From: Halogeometricum sp. S1BR25-6
Lineage (GTDB): Archaea > Halobacteriota > Halobacteria > Halobacteriales > Haloferacaceae
DNA: 64,000 nucleotides
Direction of reading: 5' to 3'
Assembly: GCF_031624495.1 (NCBI RefSeq)
Contig: NZ_JAMQOP010000003.1
Location: 372,001-436,000 of the forward strand
Shown here: one piece after another, positions 412-12,022 of the stretch
Numbering within the stretch: position 1 is the first letter of the stretch
Layout: each line of letters begins with the position of its first letter
Notes under the pieces: model-generated
What the model saw: the letters and a program-made list of their open reading frames with translations, nothing else
Databases searched by the model: none
Told to the model about the DNA's origin: nothing
Position numbers and translations under genes: made by a program

Positions 412-1503
412 TCAGCGTTGGGCGACGTTCGCTCGGTCGGCCGGCCGGCCGAGCAGTCGGGCGTACAGCGAGACGAGTTCGTCGGCGACGCCGCTCCACG
501 CGTAATCCGCCTCGACGCGGCGACGGCTCTCGGTGCCCATCCGGGCCGCCGTCTCCGAGTCCCGAAGGATATCCGCCATCGCGGAGACGAGGTCCTCCAC
601 GTCACCCGGTCGGACGACGGCACCGTTGGCTTCGTCGACGACCGAGGCGATGCTGCCGACGTCCGTCGAGACGACCGCGTTACCACCCGCCATCGCCTCT
701 AAGATAGCGATCGGAAGACCCTCCGCGTAGGTCGGGAGGACGTACACCGACGCGTCGCTCAGGAGGTCCCGCTTCTCGGCTTCGGTCACGTAGCCGACGT
801 ACTCGGCGTCGTCGTACTCGGCCGCGAGGGTCTCGGCGTGAGACGAGAGCGGACCGGAGCCGGCGACCGTGGTGCGGAAGTCGAAGCCACGATCGTACAA
901 CTCCGAGACCGCCGCCGCGAACTCGGCGATACCCTTCCGCTCGACGTGACTCGAAACGAAGACGACGTGCTGTGGGTCCGCGGCGGTGCCGGGGTCATAC
1001 TCGTCGGGGACCACCGCGTTCGGCAGAACGACCAGTTTCGAGTCGTCGACGCGAACGGAGAGCGTCTCGCGCCAGTACTCCGAGAGGACGACGACGGCGT
1101 CGCAAGCGTCGAAGACGAGCGACTGGAGAGCGGCGACGGGGCCGGACGCCTCTGCGACGAACTCGTCGAACGAAGAGCCGTGGACGTGAAGCACGACGGG
1201 CACGTCCCAGCGACGCGAGGCGAAGAGAACGTACGCCGAGGAGAGATAAAAGGAGAGATAGTGGGAGGTGTGGACGTGGACGACGTCGGGTGGAGATTCG
1301 CGGGCGAACCGAACCCAGTCGGCGACGGCGTGGAGGCCGCCGCGGGCGAGACTCAGCGGTCCGTCAGCCGACGGCGTCTTGGAGTTGAACAGTCGGACCG
1401 AGAGCCTATCGTCGAGGTGGCGCAGTTGTTCGGAGATATACCGACCGATGCCGCCGTCCTTCCCGCCCGTCGGCCCCACGACCAGCAGGTCGATGTCGTC
1501 CAT
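412..1503 (-). CDS. GT4-family glycosyltransferase
   Basis: A 363-residue GT-B fold glycosyltransferase of family GT4, the usual length for the family. The N-terminal domain has the glycine-rich loop VVGPTGGKDGGIGRYISEQL at residues 8-27. The C-terminal nucleotide-sugar domain has the EX7E motif, E261 to E269, in EGLPIAILEAMAGG. No signal peptide or membrane segment is seen, so it probably acts on the cytoplasmic side of the membrane, adding a sugar from a nucleotide donor to a lipid-linked glycan. Donor and acceptor cannot be told from sequence. It is the first member of the glycan island and is divergent from the AAC(3)-like gene at 1694. Confidence 0.9.
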   Translation of the reverse strand: MDDIDLLVVGPTGGKDGGIGRYISEQLRHLDDRLSVRLFNSKTPSADGPLSLARGGLHAVADWVRFARESPPDVVHVHTSHYLSFYLSSAYVLFASRRWDVPVVLHVHGSSFDEFVAEASGPVAALQSLVFDACDAVVVLSEYWRETLSVRVDDSKLVVLPNAVVPDEYDPGTAADPQHVVFVSSHVERKGIAEFAAAVSELYDRGFDFRTTVAGSGPLSSHAETLAAEYDDAEYVGYVTEAEKRDLLSDASVYVLPTYAEGLPIAILEAMAGGNAVVSTDVGSIASVVDEANGAVVRPGDVEDLVSAMADILRDSETAARMGTESRRRVEADYAWSGVADELVSLYARLLGRPADRANVAQR

Positions 1504-1693: not shown

Positions 1694-2518
1694 GTGACGA
1701 CGTACGCGAACGCACCGACGCAGGCGCGTCGCGTCGGCAACCTGGTGAAACACCAGGCGCTCAAACAGGTGCGGCTTCGACGCGGCGCCTCACGGGCGTC
1801 GAAATCGGCGTTCGACGACCTGTTGGACCGACACGCCGTCGGACACGACCAAGTGTTCGTTCACGCCGGCCTCGGCGACGTGAGAGACGCGTTCGACGTC
1901 GACCCCTACCGCTTTCTGCTCGGTCGACTGGCGGAGCGATTCGAGAGCGTCGTGGCGCCGGGGTTCACCGACTACTTCACCGTCTCGGGGGTGTACCACA
2001 AGCAGTTCTCGCGGCCGAAGCACGGCGCGTTCGTCCGGCAGTTCCACGAGGACGCCGACTACCGGACGGACGACGCGATAAAGTCGTTTCTGGTGAAGGG
2101 ACCGTACCGCTTCGACGACTGCGTCCACCGCGACACCTACCACGAAGAGGGATGTTTCGCCCGACTGGTACGCGACGAGGCGCTTCTAATGAACGTCGGA
2201 ACGCCGTGGTTCACCTGCTCGCATCTCCACTACCTCGAAGCGAAGCACGATGTGCCGTACGTGGAGACGCGGACTCACGAGGGCGTCATCTATCGGACGC
2301 CCACGGAGCACGAACGGATCGAGCAGACGTACGAGACGCTGCGGTCGCCGCTGTACTCGTGGAACAAGCCGAAGATAATGCGTCGCCTTCGACGCGCCGG
2401 CGCGCTGAACACGTACGACCTGAACGGCCTCAACGTCTACGTCTCTCGACTCGACAAGGTGGAACGCGTGCTGGGTGCCGAACTCCGCGACGACCCCTAC
2501 TATCTCGTCACTCTCTGA
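1694..2518 (+). CDS. AAC(3)-fold N-acetyltransferase, probably acting on sugars
   Basis: A 274-residue protein with a GTG start. Residues 54-61 (VFVHAGLG) and 88-117 (an APGFTDYF segment running to KHGAFVRQF) resemble the acetyl-CoA and substrate-binding signatures of the aminoglycoside 3-N-acetyltransferase family. Members inside polysaccharide loci are thought to acetylate amino sugars rather than antibiotics. Here the neighbours are a GT4 on one side and a BNR-repeat protein and terpene synthase on the other, so a glycan-modifying role is more likely than resistance. The C-terminal third is less conserved. The gene converges with the next minus-strand gene across about 60 bp. Confidence 0.7.
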   Translation: MTTYANAPTQARRVGNLVKHQALKQVRLRRGASRASKSAFDDLLDRHAVGHDQVFVHAGLGDVRDAFDVDPYRFLLGRLAERFESVVAPGFTDYFTVSGVYHKQFSRPKHGAFVRQFHEDADYRTDDAIKSFLVKGPYRFDDCVHRDTYHEEGCFARLVRDEALLMNVGTPWFTCSHLHYLEAKHDVPYVETRTHEGVIYRTPTEHERIEQTYETLRSPLYSWNKPKIMRRLRRAGALNTYDLNGLNVYVSRLDKVERVLGAELRDDPYYLVTL

Positions 2519-2579: not shown

Positions 2580-3764
2580 TCAACGGAGGAAACGCTTTGC
2601 AACGCTCCGAATCGACGGGGGTCGTCGGGAGGACGCGCGCGTCGAACCCGCGTCGACGGTGTCGGCGAGGTCCGACAGCGGTATCCGGAGCACCTGACCA
2701 TCGCGCGCGGCGGTGTTGGACGGATTTACCAGGAGACCGAGTTTCGAGTCGGCGCGAACGAAGGCGTGTGCGTCCGTCGTCGGGACCCGCGGAAGCACGT
2801 CGCCGAGGGTGCGTCGGCGTTCGAAGGAGCAGAGTTCGTGCCACGACTCGTAGCCGTCCGCGCTGGACGCGGCGAGGACGCGCACCTCCCGCGGACAGGT
2901 GTTTCGCTGCTGGTCCGCGGGGGCCGTGCTGTCGACGCCCGTCTGCGAACTCGCCGACCCGACGACGTAGTGTTCGCCGCCGTGTTCGACCGTCTCGACG
3001 TAGAACAGGACGCCGTCCGTGGCTCCGACGACGTCCGGTTCGGGACTCGGGTCCGAGAGGCGTTCGCGCGGAAGCTTGTAGATGGGTTTGTTCGCGGCGA
3101 ACGACGCGTCCTTACCCCAGAAGACGGCCTCGGGCGTGAATCCGAGTTGGACGCCCCGCCACGCCTGACTCCCGGAGCCGAGGGGTTCGTACCGCCCGTC
3201 GGCGACGACGCCGATAGAACTCTCCTCGTCCCCGTCGCCGGTATTCGCCCAGAGCATCCCTCCATGGGGGTCGGCGTAGACGCCGTGAAAGTGCCGCACG
3301 TCGTCGCGTTCGAGGAACACCGACCACGTGCGCCCGTCGTCGTCGCTGACGCGGATACGGCCCGGTTCGTCGCGGAGGGCGTACTCCGCGAGATACACGT
3401 CGCCCTCGTAGCGGCAGACGGAACTGGGCAGGAGTCCTTTCGGCGGGGACGATGGAGGAAGGTCGAGAACGTGCATCCACGAGCGACCCCCGTCTCCCGA
3501 GCGGTAGACGCGCGAACCGACGTTGGCGAGGAGCGACTCCGCGGAGAGCGCCCAGACGTTCGACGACTGGTAACGCCCCGTGACGGGAGCGAGAAACGAT
3601 TTTCCGACGGTGGAGTGCAACGCTCGGAACCGGATGCGCTTCGGAACGCCGGGCGGGTCCGGAAACCGACTCCGAACCGCCGTCCCGTCGGCGGGATTTA
3701 GCACGACGGACTCCAGACCGGACGTGCAGTACAGTGTTCCGTCGCGAACGTCCCCCAGATGCAT
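2580..3764 (-). CDS. BNR/Asp-box repeat beta-propeller-like protein
   Basis: A 394-residue protein if it starts at the ATG at 3764. The open frame runs on to 4394, but that part overlaps the terpene synthase antisense frame and has arginine-rich shadow composition, so it was excluded. Two Asp boxes (S-x-D-x-G-x-x-W) are visible, SGDGGRSW and SDDDGRTW, typical of sialidase-like propellers. No signal peptide is visible with this start, so the product seems cytoplasmic. Catalytic residues of sialidases could not be assigned. It lies 89 bp downstream of the terpene synthase on the same strand and may be cotranscribed with it. Function unknown. Confidence 0.7.
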   Translation of the reverse strand: MHLGDVRDGTLYCTSGLESVVLNPADGTAVRSRFPDPPGVPKRIRFRALHSTVGKSFLAPVTGRYQSSNVWALSAESLLANVGSRVYRSGDGGRSWMHVLDLPPSSPPKGLLPSSVCRYEGDVYLAEYALRDEPGRIRVSDDDGRTWSVFLERDDVRHFHGVYADPHGGMLWANTGDGDEESSIGVVADGRYEPLGSGSQAWRGVQLGFTPEAVFWGKDASFAANKPIYKLPRERLSDPSPEPDVVGATDGVLFYVETVEHGGEHYVVGSASSQTGVDSTAPADQQRNTCPREVRVLAASSADGYESWHELCSFERRRTLGDVLPRVPTTDAHAFVRADSKLGLLVNPSNTAARDGQVLRIPLSDLADTVDAGSTRASSRRPPSIRSVAKRFLR

Positions 3765-3853: not shown

Positions 3854-4831
3854 TTACTTCTGTCCGTAGCTCGAAACGTGGAACTCCATCACCGTCTTCA
3901 TCCCCCGAATCAGACAGTCCACGTCGAAGCTCTCGATGTCGAACTCGCGTTCGGAGACGGCTTCGTACCGCTCGTACCACTCGTCTTCGAACCGCTCGGC
4001 CACGCCGTTGTCCTGGATTGCCGCGATGGCCCGGTCGGGTTCGTCGTCGGCCGTGATGATGCCCTTGTCGAGGGCGTCGACGACGACACCGGCCGTGTAG
4101 TCGTCCTCGTACAGTTCGCGCTCCCAGGTCGTCACCCAGTTGCCGATACGAGCCATCCCCTGCAGTTCGAGGAGCAGTTCGCGGAGTTCCCCCAACTCCG
4201 TGCGGTCGAACGACGGCGTCCACATGATGTCGATGCCCGCGTACGGGAACATCACCATGTTGAACGGGCCGTAGTGCTGGGACTCCTCCAAGTTGGCTAT
4301 CTCGCGGTTGTCGTTGAGGACGCGCGCGTACTCCATGGCGTTGAGCGCCTGTCGCAGGTCGAACTGGAAGACGTCCAGCTGCTCCTCGTAGCACGGAGCC
4401 TGGGTTAATCGGCTATTAACCTCGTTCCAGAGCGTCTCGGCGAACTCCAGAATCTCCGTGTCGACACCGGGGGCGTCGTAGCGAACCGACTCGGGCGCGT
4501 ACGGAAGGCGGCGCGCCTGTTCGAACGTCTCGCGGTCGCCGAAGTGGTCCGCCAAGTCGTCGAGGACGGTGATGTACATCGTCAGCATCGTCTTCGTCGT
4601 CTTGACCTCCTCCATCACGTCCGACGGGACGCACGGAAGCGTGAACGCGTCGAACAGGCGGTGGATCCACTGCCAGAGGAATACGTCGCGGCCCCCCACA
4701 GTTCGGTCGTACTCGTCCGAGAGTTCGCGGACGCGCGGCGGTAGTTCGGTCTGTCTAACGGCTTCGATACAGTCTGCGGGAGTCCCCCCAAGGATCCCAT
4801 CCGAGTGCTGGTATGCTGCTCTCCCCGACAT
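3854..4831 (-). CDS. Putative class I terpene synthase (terpene cyclase)
   Basis: A 325-residue all-helical protein of the usual length for microbial class I terpene synthases. The aspartate-rich metal motif DDLAD is at residues 91-95, and an NSE-type triad is at N231, T235, E239 (NWVTTWERE), about 140 residues later as the family requires. A squalene or phytoene synthase would show two aspartate-rich motifs, which are not seen. The expected reaction is Mg-dependent ionisation and cyclisation of a prenyl diphosphate; the product is unknown. A TATA-like TTAATA at 4856-4861 lies 25-30 bp upstream, fitting a leaderless transcript. The gene is divergent from a Bat-family regulator. Class I terpene synthases are seldom described in archaea, so this needs an HMM check. 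Confidence 0.7.
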   Translation of the reverse strand: MSGRAAYQHSDGILGGTPADCIEAVRQTELPPRVRELSDEYDRTVGGRDVFLWQWIHRLFDAFTLPCVPSDVMEEVKTTKTMLTMYITVLDDLADHFGDRETFEQARRLPYAPESVRYDAPGVDTEILEFAETLWNEVNSRLTQAPCYEEQLDVFQFDLRQALNAMEYARVLNDNREIANLEESQHYGPFNMVMFPYAGIDIMWTPSFDRTELGELRELLLELQGMARIGNWVTTWERELYEDDYTAGVVVDALDKGIITADDEPDRAIAAIQDNGVAERFEDEWYERYEAVSEREFDIESFDVDCLIRGMKTVMEFHVSSYGQK

Positions 4832-5019
4832 ACTCCGATTAACAGAGTACTAACGTATTAATCTTCCTCCTTAATCTTACTATTTTGTATACATTCAAGA
4901 TAATATGAACATTATAGCTGCACAAATTGCCGCATACTGCCCGTACATTCATATATTTGTGAATTTTTTGCCCTCGTCGACACGACCACTTATTGTCGGC
5001 CGCGCGCTACCTGCGTCCC
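4832..5019. promoter_or_regulatory. AT-rich divergent intergenic region, terpene synthase/Bat regulator
   Basis: A 188-bp spacer far more AT-rich than the flanking genes. It carries a TATA-like box for each gene (4856-4861 for the minus gene, 4990-4994 for the plus gene). The octamer TACATTCA occurs twice in direct orientation, at 4890-4897 and 4944-4951, 54 bp apart. These could be activator sites for the divergently encoded regulator, but no known Bat binding site was recognised. Confidence 0.5.
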
Positions 5020-7869
5020 ATGACCGCCGAGTCGACTGCGACCCAGTCCGCGGTGCGAGTCCGTCTCCTCGGCGACGGCGCCTCCGCGTCGGACGTCCGG
5101 AGTCTCCTTCGCGACGACGAACGCGTCTCGCTGCTACCCACGTCCGGAGAGGGCGAGACACGGGCAGGCGCGAGTACGAACGAAGACGCTGACGCGGACT
5201 GTCTCGTCTGTACGACCGTCGACGCCATCCCGACCAGGGGATTCGGTCCCGCTCCGGTCGTCGTCGTCCTTCCGAACCCGGACGACGAGTCGGTAAGCAC
5301 CGCCTACCGCGCGGGCGCGACAGACGTGCTCGCCCCCACCGAGTCGCTCCCGGCGCAGGTCGCGTGGCTCTCGGGTGCCGACGAACTCGATGGCGAGGGC
5401 GGAAAGTCGGCGGCGACGCTCGTCGAGAGCGCGAACGCATTCGACGACGCCGCGTGCGTTCTCGACCGGCGCTGGCGAGTCGGAGCGGCGACCGACGCGT
5501 TCGCCGAACTCGTGGGGGAGCACCCGGCGGATGCGAGCGCCGACGGGGAATCTGAGTCCGACCATCCGTCCGAGGACCCCGGCGCCAACGCGGACACCGA
5601 GACGCACTTGTGGTCCGACTATCCGTCCCTGCGCGCGGTGGGAGCGTCGTGTTGGGAGGCGGTGCTGTCCGGGGAGACGACGGTGTTCGAGGAGACGCTT
5701 CCCGACGGGCGGCGCGTGTCGGGGCAGGCCGTCCCTCTGCCCGACGGCGTCGCGCTCCGATTCCGCGACGTCACCGAGGAGACGGAGACGCGGGAGTCGC
5801 TGGACCGCTACGAACGCATCCTGGAGACCATCGACGACGGCATCTACATCCTCGACGAGAACTTCCTCATCACGGAAGTCAACGACGCCGTCACGCAGAT
5901 GACGGGGTACGACCGCGAGGAACTGGTCGGCTCGCACTCGACGATGCTCGCGGACGAGTCGGTCATCGTGGAGGCCAGCGCCCTCATCCAGGAGATACTG
6001 ATGGGCGAGCGGTCGGACGGCCGTCTCGACGTCGAGTTGCAGACGGCGGACGGGAGCACGCTACCCGTCGAGACGCGCTTCTCCGCGCTCTCGTTCAACG
6101 ACGGCTCCCACGGAATGGTGGGGGTTATCCGCGACATCACGGACAGAAAGCGGTACGAGAAGACGCTGACGTCGCTGAACCGGTCGGCGCACGAACTGTT
6201 CGAGTCGCAGACCAAACCCGACGTGGGCGAGACGGTGCTGAACACGGCGACGGAGATTCTCGAACTGGAGTCGGTCGTCGTCTACCTGTACGACGAGGAA
6301 GCGGGGGCGCTCCGACCGGTAGCGTGGGAGGGCGAAGGGACGCCCACGCGCATCGGACCGGGCGACGGCGCGCTGTGGACGTGTTTCGCGGAACACGAGT
6401 CGATAGCGCTCGGAACGGTCGAGACGACGCTCGACGAGTGGGACGAACTCGCCCCCGCGGACGTCCCGGAGTTATCGAACGGCGAGAGCGTCGTGATTCC
6501 GCTCGGCGAACACGGCGTGTTGGCGACGGTATCCTCGGGGGAAGACTCCCCGCGCGGGCAGTCGACCCTGACGCACCTCCTGGCCGCGAACGCCGAAGCG
6601 GCGCTCGACCGCGTGGCTCGGTCGGTCGAACTCGAACGTCGGAGGGGAGAGCTCTCTCAGCGGAACGAGGAACTGACCAGCCTCAACCGCTTCAACGAAC
6701 TCCTTCGGGAGGTGAACCGCGTTCTCGTCGAGGCGGACTCCCGCGAGGCCATCGAGAAGGCGGTGTGCGAGCAGTTGGTGGACGGACCCTCCATCGCGTT
6801 CGCGTGGGTCGGCACGTACGACCGCGTCTCCGAGTCTATCGTCCCGCGCGCGTGGGCGGGCGCCGAACGCGGCTACCTCGACTGCCTGACGGACGACCCC
6901 GAGTCGTTCGAGGTCGAACCGAGCGTGCGGACCATCCAGAACGGCGAGACGACCGTCGTCGACAACGCCGGCCAGCGAATTCAGGAGTACCGGTGGCGGC
7001 GCGACGCCTTGGACAGGGGGTTCGTCTCCGTCGCCAGCTTTCCGCTGACGTACGGCGAGTTCGGCTACGGCGCCCTGACCGTCTACGCGACCGAACCGAA
7101 CGCGTTCGACGAACGGACGAGGCTCATGTTCGAGGAACTCGGCGTCACGACGGCGAACGCCATCAACGGCGCGGAGGCGAAGGAGTCGCTGCACACCGAG
7201 TCGCTCATCGAACTCGACATCCGAATCACTAGTCCTAACGCCCCGCTGCTCCGCATCTCGCAGGCCTTCGGGGGGCAGATCGAACTGGAGGGGACGGTGC
7301 CGCAGCCATCGGGGTCGTCGCTGCTGTACCTGACGGTGAAAGGGTCCGACGCCGACATCGAATCCCTGTCGTCGCTGACGGTGGTCGAACGGGTGCGGAA
7401 GGTCGTCGAACGGGACGACGAGACGCTGGTGGAAGTGCAGTTGGCCGCCGAGGCGCTCCCGTCTCGGCTCGCGGACCTCGGTGCCGTCGTCCGCACGCTC
7501 AGTTCGACGCCCGACGCCCTCGACGTCGTCGTCGAACTCGCTCCGGGGTCGGACGTGCGCGAGTTCGTCGAACTTCTGCAGGAGCAGTACCCCGGAACCG
7601 AACTGAGCGCCAAGCGGACCCGCGAGCGGTCGATAGAGACCCAACAGTCTTTCCGCGCCGGATTGAGGGAGGCGTTGACCGACCGGCAGTTCGAGGCGCT
7701 GCGTACCGCCTACTTCTCGGGGTACTTCGACTGGCCCCGCGAACGGACGGCGAGCGACCTCGCGGAGTCGCTGGGTGTCGCACAACCCACATTTGCGCGG
7801 CACCTCCGTGTCGCCGAACGGAAACTCCTCGACAACCTGCTGTCGGACGAACAGCGAAGGCGTCGGTGA
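5020..7869 (+). CDS. Bat-family PAS/GAF sensor and HTH_10 transcription regulator
   Basis: A 949-residue regulator. In order: a degenerate receiver-like domain (about 8-115, no clear phospho-Asp), a divergent PAS with an acidic insertion (about 130-240), a canonical PAS (about 263-375), GAF (about 383-530), a second GAF (about 552-715), the Bat-specific domain (about 726-863) and a C-terminal HTH_10 (about 880-943, around YFDWPRERTASDLAESLGV). In Halobacterium the family founder Bat activates bacterio-opsin and carotenoid genes in response to low oxygen and light. The ATG at 5020 is preferred to the in-frame TTG at 4993 because a TATTG element lies 26-30 bp upstream. The divergent terpene synthase is an attractive target. 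Confidence 0.88.
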   Translation: MTAESTATQSAVRVRLLGDGASASDVRSLLRDDERVSLLPTSGEGETRAGASTNEDADADCLVCTTVDAIPTRGFGPAPVVVVLPNPDDESVSTAYRAGATDVLAPTESLPAQVAWLSGADELDGEGGKSAATLVESANAFDDAACVLDRRWRVGAATDAFAELVGEHPADASADGESESDHPSEDPGANADTETHLWSDYPSLRAVGASCWEAVLSGETTVFEETLPDGRRVSGQAVPLPDGVALRFRDVTEETETRESLDRYERILETIDDGIYILDENFLITEVNDAVTQMTGYDREELVGSHSTMLADESVIVEASALIQEILMGERSDGRLDVELQTADGSTLPVETRFSALSFNDGSHGMVGVIRDITDRKRYEKTLTSLNRSAHELFESQTKPDVGETVLNTATEILELESVVVYLYDEEAGALRPVAWEGEGTPTRIGPGDGALWTCFAEHESIALGTVETTLDEWDELAPADVPELSNGESVVIPLGEHGVLATVSSGEDSPRGQSTLTHLLAANAEAALDRVARSVELERRRGELSQRNEELTSLNRFNELLREVNRVLVEADSREAIEKAVCEQLVDGPSIAFAWVGTYDRVSESIVPRAWAGAERGYLDCLTDDPESFEVEPSVRTIQNGETTVVDNAGQRIQEYRWRRDALDRGFVSVASFPLTYGEFGYGALTVYATEPNAFDERTRLMFEELGVTTANAINGAEAKESLHTESLIELDIRITSPNAPLLRISQAFGGQIELEGTVPQPSGSSLLYLTVKGSDADIESLSSLTVVERVRKVVERDDETLVEVQLAAEALPSRLADLGAVVRTLSSTPDALDVVVELAPGSDVREFVELLQEQYPGTELSAKRTRERSIETQQSFRAGLREALTDRQFEALRTAYFSGYFDWPRERTASDLAESLGVAQPTFARHLRVAERKLLDNLLSDEQRRRR

Positions 7870-8025: not shown

Positions 8026-8316
8026 ATGAATCAGATGGGGAAGAACGACGGTGCGATGGTGGACGAGGAACTCGACTGGAAGATCGTGAGCGCGGTGGCC
8101 GAGGAGAAAGGCGTCGAACCGCTGGAACTCGACGAGCGACTGTACGACGTTGTCGACCTCGACGCGGTCAAGGAACTGTTCGTGGGGATGCCGAACCGCG
8201 CGGCGTTAGTCGAGGGACACGTGACGTTCACGCTCGCCGGGTGCGAAGTCGTCGTCGACCAAGCGTGGAACGTCGACGTCACGGCCGCCCCGTCACCCAA
8301 CGTCGCCGCCGACTGA
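8026..8316 (+). CDS. HalOD1 output-domain protein
   Basis: A 96-residue stand-alone HalOD1 domain: the ELDWKIVSAVAEEKGVEPLE start, the ERLYDVVDLDAVKELF middle and the terminal strand pair VTFTLAGCEVVV are typical. HalOD1 is thought to be an output module in haloarchaeal signalling, and short free-standing copies are common; the mechanism is not known. A TATCTATATAG element at 7946-7956 and a second weak box near 7982 could serve as promoter. The gene follows the Bat-like regulator on the same strand but is separated by 156 bp. A second copy lies at 53496. Confidence 0.8.
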   Translation: MNQMGKNDGAMVDEELDWKIVSAVAEEKGVEPLELDERLYDVVDLDAVKELFVGMPNRAALVEGHVTFTLAGCEVVVDQAWNVDVTAAPSPNVAAD

Positions 8317-9442: not shown

Positions 9443-10660
9443 TCAGTCGGTCTCACGGATGCCGACCCGACCTGACACCGGGCCGCGCTCGTCGCTGTCG
9501 GCCGATTCGCGCGCCAACGTCGCGAGGGCCAGCGTCATCCAGCCCTGACTCCAGCGGATGTACGGCGTCTCGTCGTCGAAGACCCGGCCGATTCGGCGGT
9601 AGAAGTAGCCCTCCTCGTCGTACAGGTGCTCCATCGTCCACTCGTACACGTCGGCGGCGACGTCGTGCGCGTCGTCGTCATCCGAACGGACGAGGGTGAC
9701 GAGCGCCTGCGCGGAGGCGTGTGCGTCGTAGGGGTACGACTGGTCGGACTCGAACTTCGGCGCGCCGTCCGCCTCGAACAGTTCGCGGACGAAGAAGTCC
9801 AGTCCGTCCTCGTACGCCTCGCGGACGCGTTCGTCCCCCCGGTCGGATTCGGCGTACTCGTAGAGACTCTCCAAAACGAACCCGGTGTGGAAATTATCGT
9901 GGCTGAGGTGGGACTCGGAGGCGGGCATCGAGTAGTACCACGCGCCGCCGTCGTCCTGCGCGTGGAGGACGAACTCGAACAGTTCCTCGGCGCGGTCGGC
10001 AAGTCCCTCGCCGCTGGTGTGCTCCGAGAGTCGCAGGAAAAAGGCGGCGGCGAGGGCGTTGGCGTTGATGACGACGAATTCGTCGTACGGCGTGTACGCG
10101 TACGCCTCGAACCCGTCGACTTCGACGACGTTGATGCCCTCGCGGATGTACGTGGCCGCGTCCGTGGCCACGTCGAGCGACCACGTCGCCCCGGTCAGTT
10201 CGTGGTGTTCGAGGAACGCGCGCGCACAGAACACCGTCACTACGACGGACGGGTGGTAGGCGGGGAGGAAGAACTTCCGCGCGTTCTGCCAGTCGAAGTT
10301 GTACCCCCACGCGTGGTGTCGGGTGACGGGCGAGGTGTACTCTTCCAGCCACCGGAGCAGGTCCTCCGCTTCGGTGAGGTATCGCCCCTCCCCCGTGGCC
10401 TCGTACAGGCGGAGACACGCCGAGGCGAACAGCGCGATGCCCTTCGGGTTCCGTTCGGGTTCGACGCCGAGGAGCGGACGAAGGTTCACCGGAGATTTGT
10501 TAACACCGTGCATGGCGGCGAGGCGAGTGAACCAGTTCGTCGCGAACGGCGCGAGGACGGGACTGTTGAGACCGTCGTACGGGTCGTAACCGGCGTACTC
10601 GCGGTCCCGCGCCCACCGGAGCGCCCGGTCGGCAGTCTCGCGTGGAGAGGCGTGCGTCAT
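9443..10660 (-). CDS. Six-hairpin (alpha/alpha)6-barrel glycosidase-like protein
   Basis: A 405-residue helical-repeat protein starting at the ATG at 10660; the longer open frame to 11248 is an arginine-rich shadow. Repeating helical pairs with aromatic and acidic residues (ARKFFLPAYHPSVVV, YDPYDGLNSPVL, YDAHASAQALVTL) suggest the toroid fold of N-acylglucosamine 2-epimerases, uronyl epimerases and GH88/GH105-type hydrolases. Homologues in haloarchaeal genomes are, from memory, sometimes mislabelled as antibiotic transporter permease; no membrane segments are present. It probably acts on or binds a cytoplasmic glycan. Related toroid architecture recurs as the C-terminal part of the 57976 gene. 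Reaction unknown. Confidence 0.7.
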   Translation of the reverse strand: MTHASPRETADRALRWARDREYAGYDPYDGLNSPVLAPFATNWFTRLAAMHGVNKSPVNLRPLLGVEPERNPKGIALFASACLRLYEATGEGRYLTEAEDLLRWLEEYTSPVTRHHAWGYNFDWQNARKFFLPAYHPSVVVTVFCARAFLEHHELTGATWSLDVATDAATYIREGINVVEVDGFEAYAYTPYDEFVVINANALAAAFFLRLSEHTSGEGLADRAEELFEFVLHAQDDGGAWYYSMPASESHLSHDNFHTGFVLESLYEYAESDRGDERVREAYEDGLDFFVRELFEADGAPKFESDQSYPYDAHASAQALVTLVRSDDDDAHDVAADVYEWTMEHLYDEEGYFYRRIGRVFDDETPYIRWSQGWMTLALATLARESADSDERGPVSGRVGIRETD

Positions 10661-11017
10661 GTTCGTGCTGCGGATGCCTACCTCGCGCAGGGTATTGGTT
10701 ACTCGTCGTACAATCGGTCCGAGCGTCCGACGACGACGACGGGGGCCGGCGGCGCGACGACGGGCACGAGTCCGGTCGGCCGGAAGCGACCGTTCCGGGA
10801 GAACGAACGGGCGTGTCGTACGAGTCCGCCGCCAGCGGCGGCGAGTCGGCCGCGAGCGGACGAGGCGAGCGTGTCTGTCTCGCGCACCGGACAGTCCGGT
10901 AGAGCGATTAAACCGACCATAACAAAGCTCGTACCGCAGAGACGACGGACGAAACACCTCCATGCACACCGCAGTACGTCCGAGTGACGCGCCGCGACGG
11001 GCGCGGGGTGGCGCGCC
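10661..11017. promoter_or_regulatory. Divergent promoter region
   Basis: A 357-bp spacer between divergent genes with no convincing coding sequence. On the plus strand CATAACAAAG occurs at 10918-10927, 91 bp before the DUF1616 start, matching the ATAACAA element seen upstream of four other glycan genes. Confidence 0.4.
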
Positions 11018-12022
11018 GTGAGCGACCGCGCGGTCTACGCGGACGTCGCGGCCAGTGTCGCAGTGGTCGCGGTGGCGGTCGTCGCCGTCCTGAGTCTCGA
11101 ACCGATAACCGCCAGAGCCGCCCTGGCCGGGGGGCTCGTCCTCTTCTTCCCCGGATACGCGCTGACGACACTCGTGTTCCCCGCCGCGAAAAAGACGCGC
11201 CCCGAGGGGAGAGACCTCCCGTCGGCGTTCGCGGGTCGAACCGAGCACGCCGGACTGCCGTTCCTAGAGCGTCTCGCCATGTCGTTCGGTCTGAGCGTCG
11301 CGCTCGTTCCCCTGTTTGCGTGGGCGTTGCAGGTGGTCGGCGCGGAGTTCCTCGCGCCGAACATCGCCGCCGTCTGCGGCGGGGCGACCGTGCTCGGCCT
11401 CCTCGCCGGCGGCGCCCGACGCCTCGCCACGCCATCAGATAGTCGCTACGTCGTTCCCGTCAGCGCGGTCACCGAGTACCGGCGGGCGGTCCGCGGGCGG
11501 TCCGAATTGGACGGCGTGCTCAACGTCGCCCTCGCGGCCGCCATCATCCTCTCGGCCGGCGTCGTCACGTTCGCGCTGGTGTCGCCCGCCGACGGCGCGA
11601 GGTACACCCAGGCGTCGCTGCTCACGGAGACGGACAACGGGACGCTCGTCGCCGCCGACTACCCGCGGAACCTCACCGTCGGCGAGAGCGGCGAACTCGT
11701 TCTCCGCATCGAGAACTACGAACGCGAGACGGTGAACTACGCCGTCGTGGCTCAACTACAGCGCGTGAGACCCGACGGGACGGTGGTCGAGGCGAGCGAA
11801 CTGGACCGTTTCTCGCAGACCGTCGGCCCCGGGAGCGCCTGGGAGTTAACCCACGGCGTCGCTCCCGAGATGACCGGTGACGACCTCAGACTCACCTATC
11901 TCATCTACCGCGGTCCGGCGCCGGAAGACCCCGACGTCGACTCTTCGTACCGTCACGTCACCCTCTGGATGAACGTGAGCGACCCCAGCGCGGCCGAAAC
12001 GGGCAAACTAGCCGCGTCGTGA
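11018..12022 (+). CDS. DUF1616-family membrane protein
   Basis: A 334-residue protein with a GTG start. The N-terminal half has about five hydrophobic segments (near residues 8-28, 32-52, 88-108, 112-130 and 165-187). They are followed by a soluble beta-rich domain beginning near residue 190 with the sequence YTQASLLTETDNGTLVAADY, diagnostic of DUF1616. This domain probably faces outside. The family is widespread in archaeal surface-glycosylation loci but has no assigned reaction. The gene stands alone between a divergent six-hairpin gene and the DUF354 gene. Confidence 0.8.
   Translation: MSDRAVYADVAASVAVVAVAVVAVLSLEPITARAALAGGLVLFFPGYALTTLVFPAAKKTRPEGRDLPSAFAGRTEHAGLPFLERLAMSFGLSVALVPLFAWALQVVGAEFLAPNIAAVCGGATVLGLLAGGARRLATPSDSRYVVPVSAVTEYRRAVRGRSELDGVLNVALAAAIILSAGVVTFALVSPADGARYTQASLLTETDNGTLVAADYPRNLTVGESGELVLRIENYERETVNYAVVAQLQRVRPDGTVVEASELDRFSQTVGPGSAWELTHGVAPEMTGDDLRLTYLIYRGPAPEDPDVDSSYRHVTLWMNVSDPSAAETGKLAAS

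Follow-up and report, generated by a model that had tools for sequence, protein, structure and literature searches.

The window examined here, a stretch of 64,000 nucleotides from Halogeometricum sp. S1BR25-6, contains a gene on the minus strand (positions 3854 to 4831) for a homologue of class I terpene synthases. Its family has the predicted fold of these enzymes, keeps both of their metal-binding motifs intact and is linked to several unrelated types of sensor protein, a linkage that includes co-evolution of the two partners. We propose that such pairs are make-and-sense modules, each made up of an autoinducer synthase and its receptor. That the synthase is active and that its product is most likely read by the adjacent sensor is a tentative reading of the combined analyses, to which we give somewhat less than an even chance. 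Class I terpene synthases are a known kind of enzyme; what is new, as far as we could find, is this family with its invariant NW signature, and the fact that it is paired with sensors.

Analysis of the open reading frames of the window showed the synthase gene to be real and intact. It starts with ATG, encodes 325 amino acids without an internal stop, and its stop codon lies within the coordinates; the first-pass annotation had this frame and length right and left the strand unstated. Six loci from Halogeometricum and its relatives were aligned: the ATG start is kept among the Halogeometricum relatives, and the upstream promoter DNA, together with GTATGTCGGGGAGA, is conserved in the six sequences. 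The gene is separated from its divergent neighbour by an A+T-rich intergenic region of 188 bp (4832 to 5019), which, judging from its sequence and the same alignment, holds the promoters of both genes. Within it, a conserved GGAAGATTAATA block about 30-40 bp upstream of the ATG suggests a leaderless promoter for the synthase.

Searched on its own, the window protein gave no match in Pfam at E<=1, none in NCBIfam and none to PDB sequences with phmmer, and family-level methods were therefore needed. A search of the window's own genome with PF19086 (Terpene_syn_C_2) gave no match at E<=1. The same profile matched 10 of 18 relatives, with a best E-value of 1.7e-7; one relative (L061) exceeds the curated cut-off (27.0 vs 23.7 bits, profile positions 4-183 of 199), and the others are near or below it. 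Canonical terpene synthases for comparison were drawn from Chloroflexota genomes, and hhalign aligned the family profile with them over the full length (96.7%, E 5e-10), with both metal motifs in register.

The structure predicted by AlphaFold from a 47-sequence alignment is an all-helical class I fold (pLDDT 92.9, pTM 0.90). Foldseek found 49 PDB matches at E<=1e-3, almost all of them to class I terpene synthases, including BcBOT2, the hydropyrene, aristolochene and T-muurolol synthases and the geosmin synthase N-terminal domain; the top matches have a probability of 1.00 and a TM score of about 0.4-0.6. Two prenyl diphosphate synthases, which have this fold as well, are the exceptions. In the class I terpene synthase fold the DDxxD/E and NSE motifs sit on helices D and H. 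In the model the corresponding motifs lie on helices 70-96 and 210-241. The class I call of the first-pass annotation is upheld by the fold, by the profile alignment and by both metal motifs. A trans-prenyl diphosphate synthase (PF00348) was considered and rejected, since the protein has no such Pfam match and its second motif is of the NSE type and not a second DDxxD; the genome carries two separate PF00348 genes. On these profile and model data we regard homology and fold as firm, and catalysis as likely.

The first metal motif, DDLAD (residues 91-95; 4547 to 4561, minus strand), is at the C-terminal end of predicted helix 70-96 and falls on the canonical LDDQCDE. The second, NWVTTWERE (residues 231-239; 4115 to 4141, minus strand), lies on predicted helix 210-241 with N231, T235 and E239 as its NSE-type triad, and falls on the canonical NDIISLEKE, the hhalign register placing NWVTTWERELYEDD on NDIISLEKEMRRGD. 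Class I terpene synthases are defined in sequence by a DDxxD/E motif together with an NSE triad (PMC10563020). The 47 aligned relatives, the most distant with 26% identity, all share D91, D92, N231, W232, T235, W236, R238, E239 and D244; they have D or E at position 95, and R217, Q224, R228, G230 and W285 are likewise invariant among them. DDxx(D/E) is kept in 78 of 79 loci and Nxxx(S/T)xxxE in all 79. Because both motifs are near-universal in relatives this distant, their co-occurrence is, on sequence grounds, not due to chance, and the two motifs picked out in the earlier reading stand. Its description of the second triad position as Trp instead of Asp was wrong: the metal triad N, T, E is complete, and the residue that Trp232 displaces, the Asp of the usual 'ND', lies outside the named triad. 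Nor is the NWVTTWERE variant peculiar to the window protein, as W232 is a family-wide invariant signature (47 of 47).

The family thus shares with the PF19086 synthases (bacterial sesqui- and diterpene synthases and, by fold, the fungal BcBOT2) an alpha-bundle of ~325 aa in which a DDxxD/E motif ends one helix and an NSE-type triad is carried by another, about 140 residues further on. It differs from them by the invariant NW in place of ND, by the additional invariant residues R228, R217, Q224 and W236, by Pfam scores that for most members fall close to or below the cut-off, and by its gene linkage to sensors. It differs further in that the pyrophosphate-sensor Arg and the RY pair have no clear counterpart: in the profile alignment and the 47-sequence conservation, the canonical pyrophosphate-sensing Arg aligns with non-conserved residues, and no C-terminal RY is conserved. 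The other invariant basic residues R217, R228 and R238 could, from their conservation, be substitutes for this Arg. These departures, together with Trp232 and the prenyl diphosphate synthases in the Foldseek list, would fit a protein of class I fold whose isoprenyl diphosphate substrate is not cyclised, namely a synthase releasing a linear alcohol or diphosphate, or a prenyl transferase. We consider this unlikely, as the closest folds are cyclases and the protein has neither the second DDxxD of prenyl transferases nor a PF00348 match.

The conserved partner of the synthase is the sensor and transcription regulator encoded divergently at 5020 to 7869 (plus strand, 949 aa, 188 bp away), which the first-pass annotation did not mention. 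Pfam recognises BAT (4e-42), HTH_10 (5e-21), GAF_2 (7e-19) and PAS (1e-16) domains in it, and it therefore has the PAS-GAF-BAT-HTH_10 architecture of a Bat-type regulator. Just downstream, a 96-aa protein with a HalOD1 output domain (8026 to 8316, plus strand; PF18545, 5e-16) is encoded; HalOD1 genes occur near the synthase in many haloarchaeal loci and are a recurrent third member of the module.

The synthase had also been placed "inside a glycan island". This holds on one side of the gene, where a GT4 glycosyltransferase is encoded (about 412 to 1503, minus strand); glycan genes, however, do not travel with the synthase. A reading in which the sensor is a neighbour by accident and the synthase belongs to a glycan or S-layer island could point to this glycosyltransferase and, close to the homologue in Halogeometricum pallidum, to an S-layer-like gene. 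In other genera, however, the sensor is still there although most glycan genes have disappeared. We therefore disfavour this reading as very improbable, and the glycan island around the synthase looks incidental. Between the glycosyltransferase and the synthase, one gene (1694 to 2518, plus strand) encodes an aminoglycoside 3-N-acetyltransferase-like protein (Antibiotic_NAT, 8e-8) that in such surroundings probably acetylates a sugar. Another, immediately downstream of the synthase (2580 to 3764, minus strand), encodes an unclassified 394-aa protein without Pfam match, which is conserved in H. pallidum and by eye has sialidase/BNR-like repeats. A long open reading frame at 9443 to 11248 (minus strand) has weak Glyco_hydro_88 similarity. 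S-layer-glycoprotein-like genes were noticed by eye near the H. pallidum locus (L021:15865-17823) and just upstream of the window in its own genome (L119:17496-20003).

The linkage was examined in 79 loci from GTDB species genomes and six from plasmid records; the tree set of 85 consists of these loci plus the window, minus one frameshifted locus (L076:9812-11884), whose synthase frame runs into unrelated sequence and lacks the C-terminus, likely a frameshift of the metagenome-assembled genome (MAG). With approximate gene calls from a rough gene caller, a sensor or regulator adjoins the synthase in 58 of the 85 loci: BAT regulators in 36, 7TM histidine kinases in nine, PAS histidine kinases in eight, HTH proteins with FilR1_middle in three and other PAS proteins in two. 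In some loci a HalOD1 gene stands between synthase and sensor. The remaining 27 loci, among them a whole Halobellus clade and Halosimplex, are without an adjacent sensor. Chance adjacency was ruled out by two backgrounds, a sensor adjoining 6 of 315 genes (2%) in 400 kb of the window's genome, the only genome so sampled, and a kinase lying near 2 of 25 canonical Chloroflexota synthases. We attach no p-value to the 58 of 85, because the sequences are related to each other. The strength of the linkage is its variety, with several sensor types across different synthase clades, and the sensor types need 11 label changes on the synthase tree.

Three gene orders are found for the BAT-synthase pair: the two genes are divergent in the window and in Halorubrum, whereas the regulator lies upstream in Haloarcula and downstream in Halobaculum. 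The main groups of the synthase tree reappear in the BAT tree, and BAT and synthase distances are correlated (Mantel r 0.93; none of 5000 permutations as high). In both trees a Haloarculaceae MAG (L060) clusters with Halorubrum and Halobellus, as would be expected of a pair moving as a unit. The coupling of synthase and sensor is thus well supported, and the arrangement known from autoinducer pairs, a synthase adjacent to an output-domain sensor across lineages, is present here.

Two smaller observations were made in these loci. The HTH partners (L122:6965-7726, L123:6945-7745 and L061:10942-11820; FilR1_middle, PF08350, was tested in L122 and L061) share a domain named after a methanogen regulator, and in Halorussus the HTH gene is 1 bp from the synthase or overlaps it. 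Six Halobellus loci (L068, L079, L080, L081, L082 and L095) carry a second synthase paralogue without adjacent sensor, the neighbours of which in most cases are, by eye, type IV pilus/secretion ATPase-like and membrane platform-like genes.

In the mechanism that we propose, the Mg2+-dependent synthase would ionise an isoprenyl diphosphate (GGPP, FPP or GFPP) and release a small lipophilic terpene. This terpene would be the signal read by the neighbouring sensor, here the PAS/GAF-BAT-HTH_10 regulator at 5020 to 7869, and the HalOD1 protein would be the downstream component of the window's module. Catalysis, the product and its diffusion, its role as sensor ligand and the direction of signalling are what we infer from the genes and models. 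Against the proposal stand the 27 loci without an adjacent sensor, the lack of a clear counterpart to the pyrophosphate-sensing Arg and the RY pair, and the breadth of what PAS, GAF and BAT domains sense, light and redox state included.

The main rival takes the synthase as active and the neighbouring sensor as a mere local transcriptional controller that reads light, redox or another cue, the terpene serving membranes, protection or ecology. It is a serious possibility, if in our estimate one that falls clearly short of probable. Local regulators are typically encoded in this way, divergently from their target and sharing its promoter region, here of 188 bp. The literature describes Bat as a regulator that senses light and redox state (PMC5847659), and the gene map would look no different if the regulator did no more than switch the synthase on. 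A local controller would not lead one to expect several unrelated sensor types among the clades, and few further tailoring genes travel with the synthase. It is also less natural for an operon in which a 7TM histidine kinase and a response regulator are downstream of the synthase, or for Patescibacteria, which keep the kinase while the enzyme switches from terpene synthase to UbiA. We prefer the reading of the product as a signal because it is the simplest account of the several sensor types, the substrate-supply genes and this enzyme swap.

The operons in question are bacterial. In nine bacterial loci the synthase gene lies directly ahead of a HisKA_7TM histidine kinase gene, with 36-83 bp from the end of the synthase to the 7TM domain. 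A polyprenyl synthase is present in several of the bacterial loci and an IPP isomerase in L089 and L178 (NCBIfam equivalog over cut-off); in L093 a response regulator follows, downstream of the synthase. Among 380 Patescibacteria genomes the synthase was found in four, with the 7TM kinase adjacent in 4/4; two of these four (G854 and G730) lay outside the first locus set. This type of kinase is common, occurring in 150 of the 380 genomes, and little can be read from its presence as such; the informative features are adjacency and membership of the subtype that scores best.

Of the kinases that score best but have no synthase, four from Patescibacteria (L182, L184, L185 and L187) have a UbiA prenyltransferase gene directly upstream, accompanied in L182 by a polyprenyl synthase and a response regulator and in L184 by a DXS-like gene; in L090 a UbiA-like gene occurs alongside the synthase. 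These UbiA-kinase operons look like isoprenoid make-and-sense operons without terpene synthase: they share with the synthase operons the kinase type and a directly adjacent isoprenoid-using enzyme, and differ in that a membrane prenyltransferase replaces the terpene synthase. We know of no previous description of them. The model of the 7TM domain (pLDDT 84) matches GPCRs in Foldseek, which in a predicted structure is a general 7TM likeness, short of proof for ligand binding.

The frequent pairing with sensors could also be explained if the protein bound isoprenyl diphosphates without converting them and signalled their level to the adjacent sensor through protein contact. Such a protein would hardly keep all metal ligands in 47 of 47 relatives, its bacterial operons also encode substrate-making enzymes, and UbiA, which can take its place, is an enzyme family; we therefore consider this explanation quite improbable.

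The signal reading, extended to haloarchaea and some bacteria alike, would make the synthase (or, in some Patescibacteria, UbiA) the source of a hormone-like lipophile for the adjacent sensor. The candidate sensors are the PAS/GAF regulator, the PAS kinase, the FilR1-type regulator and the GPCR-like 7TM histidine kinase. We hold this cross-domain version slightly more loosely than the proposal for the synthase itself. If true, terpenoid signalling modules would form a class that spans two domains of life, and the haloarchaeal members would be, to our knowledge, the first genetically defined pairs of signal synthase and receptor in haloarchaea. The family offers concrete genes for archaeal terpene biosynthesis, and the sensor pairing a handle on which molecules archaea signal with and which proteins make and read them.

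CqsA/CqsS and LuxI/LuxR are autoinducer synthase-receptor pairs, in which the gene for a small-molecule synthase lies beside that for a sensor kinase or sensor-regulator. The resemblance is one of working principle only: the synthase here is a terpene synthase homologue, and its signal and receptor are proposed ones. The Bat family (bacterio-opsin activator) has the same architecture as the window's regulator, but is known as a light/redox regulator, whereas the regulator here is paired with a terpene synthase. Haloferax volcanii, also a haloarchaeon, has a small ethyl-acetate-extractable quorum signal described as chemically uncharacterised (PMC12240190), and its response protein DdfA has a HalOD1 domain (PMC10869688), like the third member of the synthase module. 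HalOD1 is very common, being found in over 2,000 proteins (PMC5847659), and the parallel is suggestive only. A link of the synthase to this signal was set aside: of 15 Haloferax genomes one has the gene, and because the other 14 are without it, the signal is probably something else.

The synthase was found in all five genomes searched of its genus and in 21 of 60 relatives; a profile search found the family in 121 of 392 Halobacteria genomes (about 31%), representing 39 of 86 genera. The NCBI name for the family is "hypothetical", and the six plasmid-borne homologues examined are all annotated "hypothetical protein". A scan of viral contigs gave no match to the synthase, and a viral fold library gave weak terpenoid-synthase matches only, in giant viruses. 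Searches of an open-access library, which leaves out preprints and most subscription papers, for haloarchaeal terpene synthases and archaeal terpenoid signalling gave no report of the synthase-sensor pairing. The first-pass remark that cyclised terpenes are seldom reported in archaea needs qualifying, as archaeal terpenoid biosynthesis is claimed in a preprint by Samusevich et al. (10.1101/2024.01.29.577750), to go by its citation in PMC12797696.

In two bacterial loci a SAM-dependent methyltransferase gene is directly upstream of the synthase (L086:195-1028, by Pfam; L088:4393-5232, same cluster), overlapping it by 17 bases in L088; methylation of the terpene, or of the precursor from which it is made, is conceivable there. 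The MAG containing L086 is labelled Lysobacteraceae; at about 0.7 Mb and with a patescibacterial-looking operon, it is probably mis-assigned.
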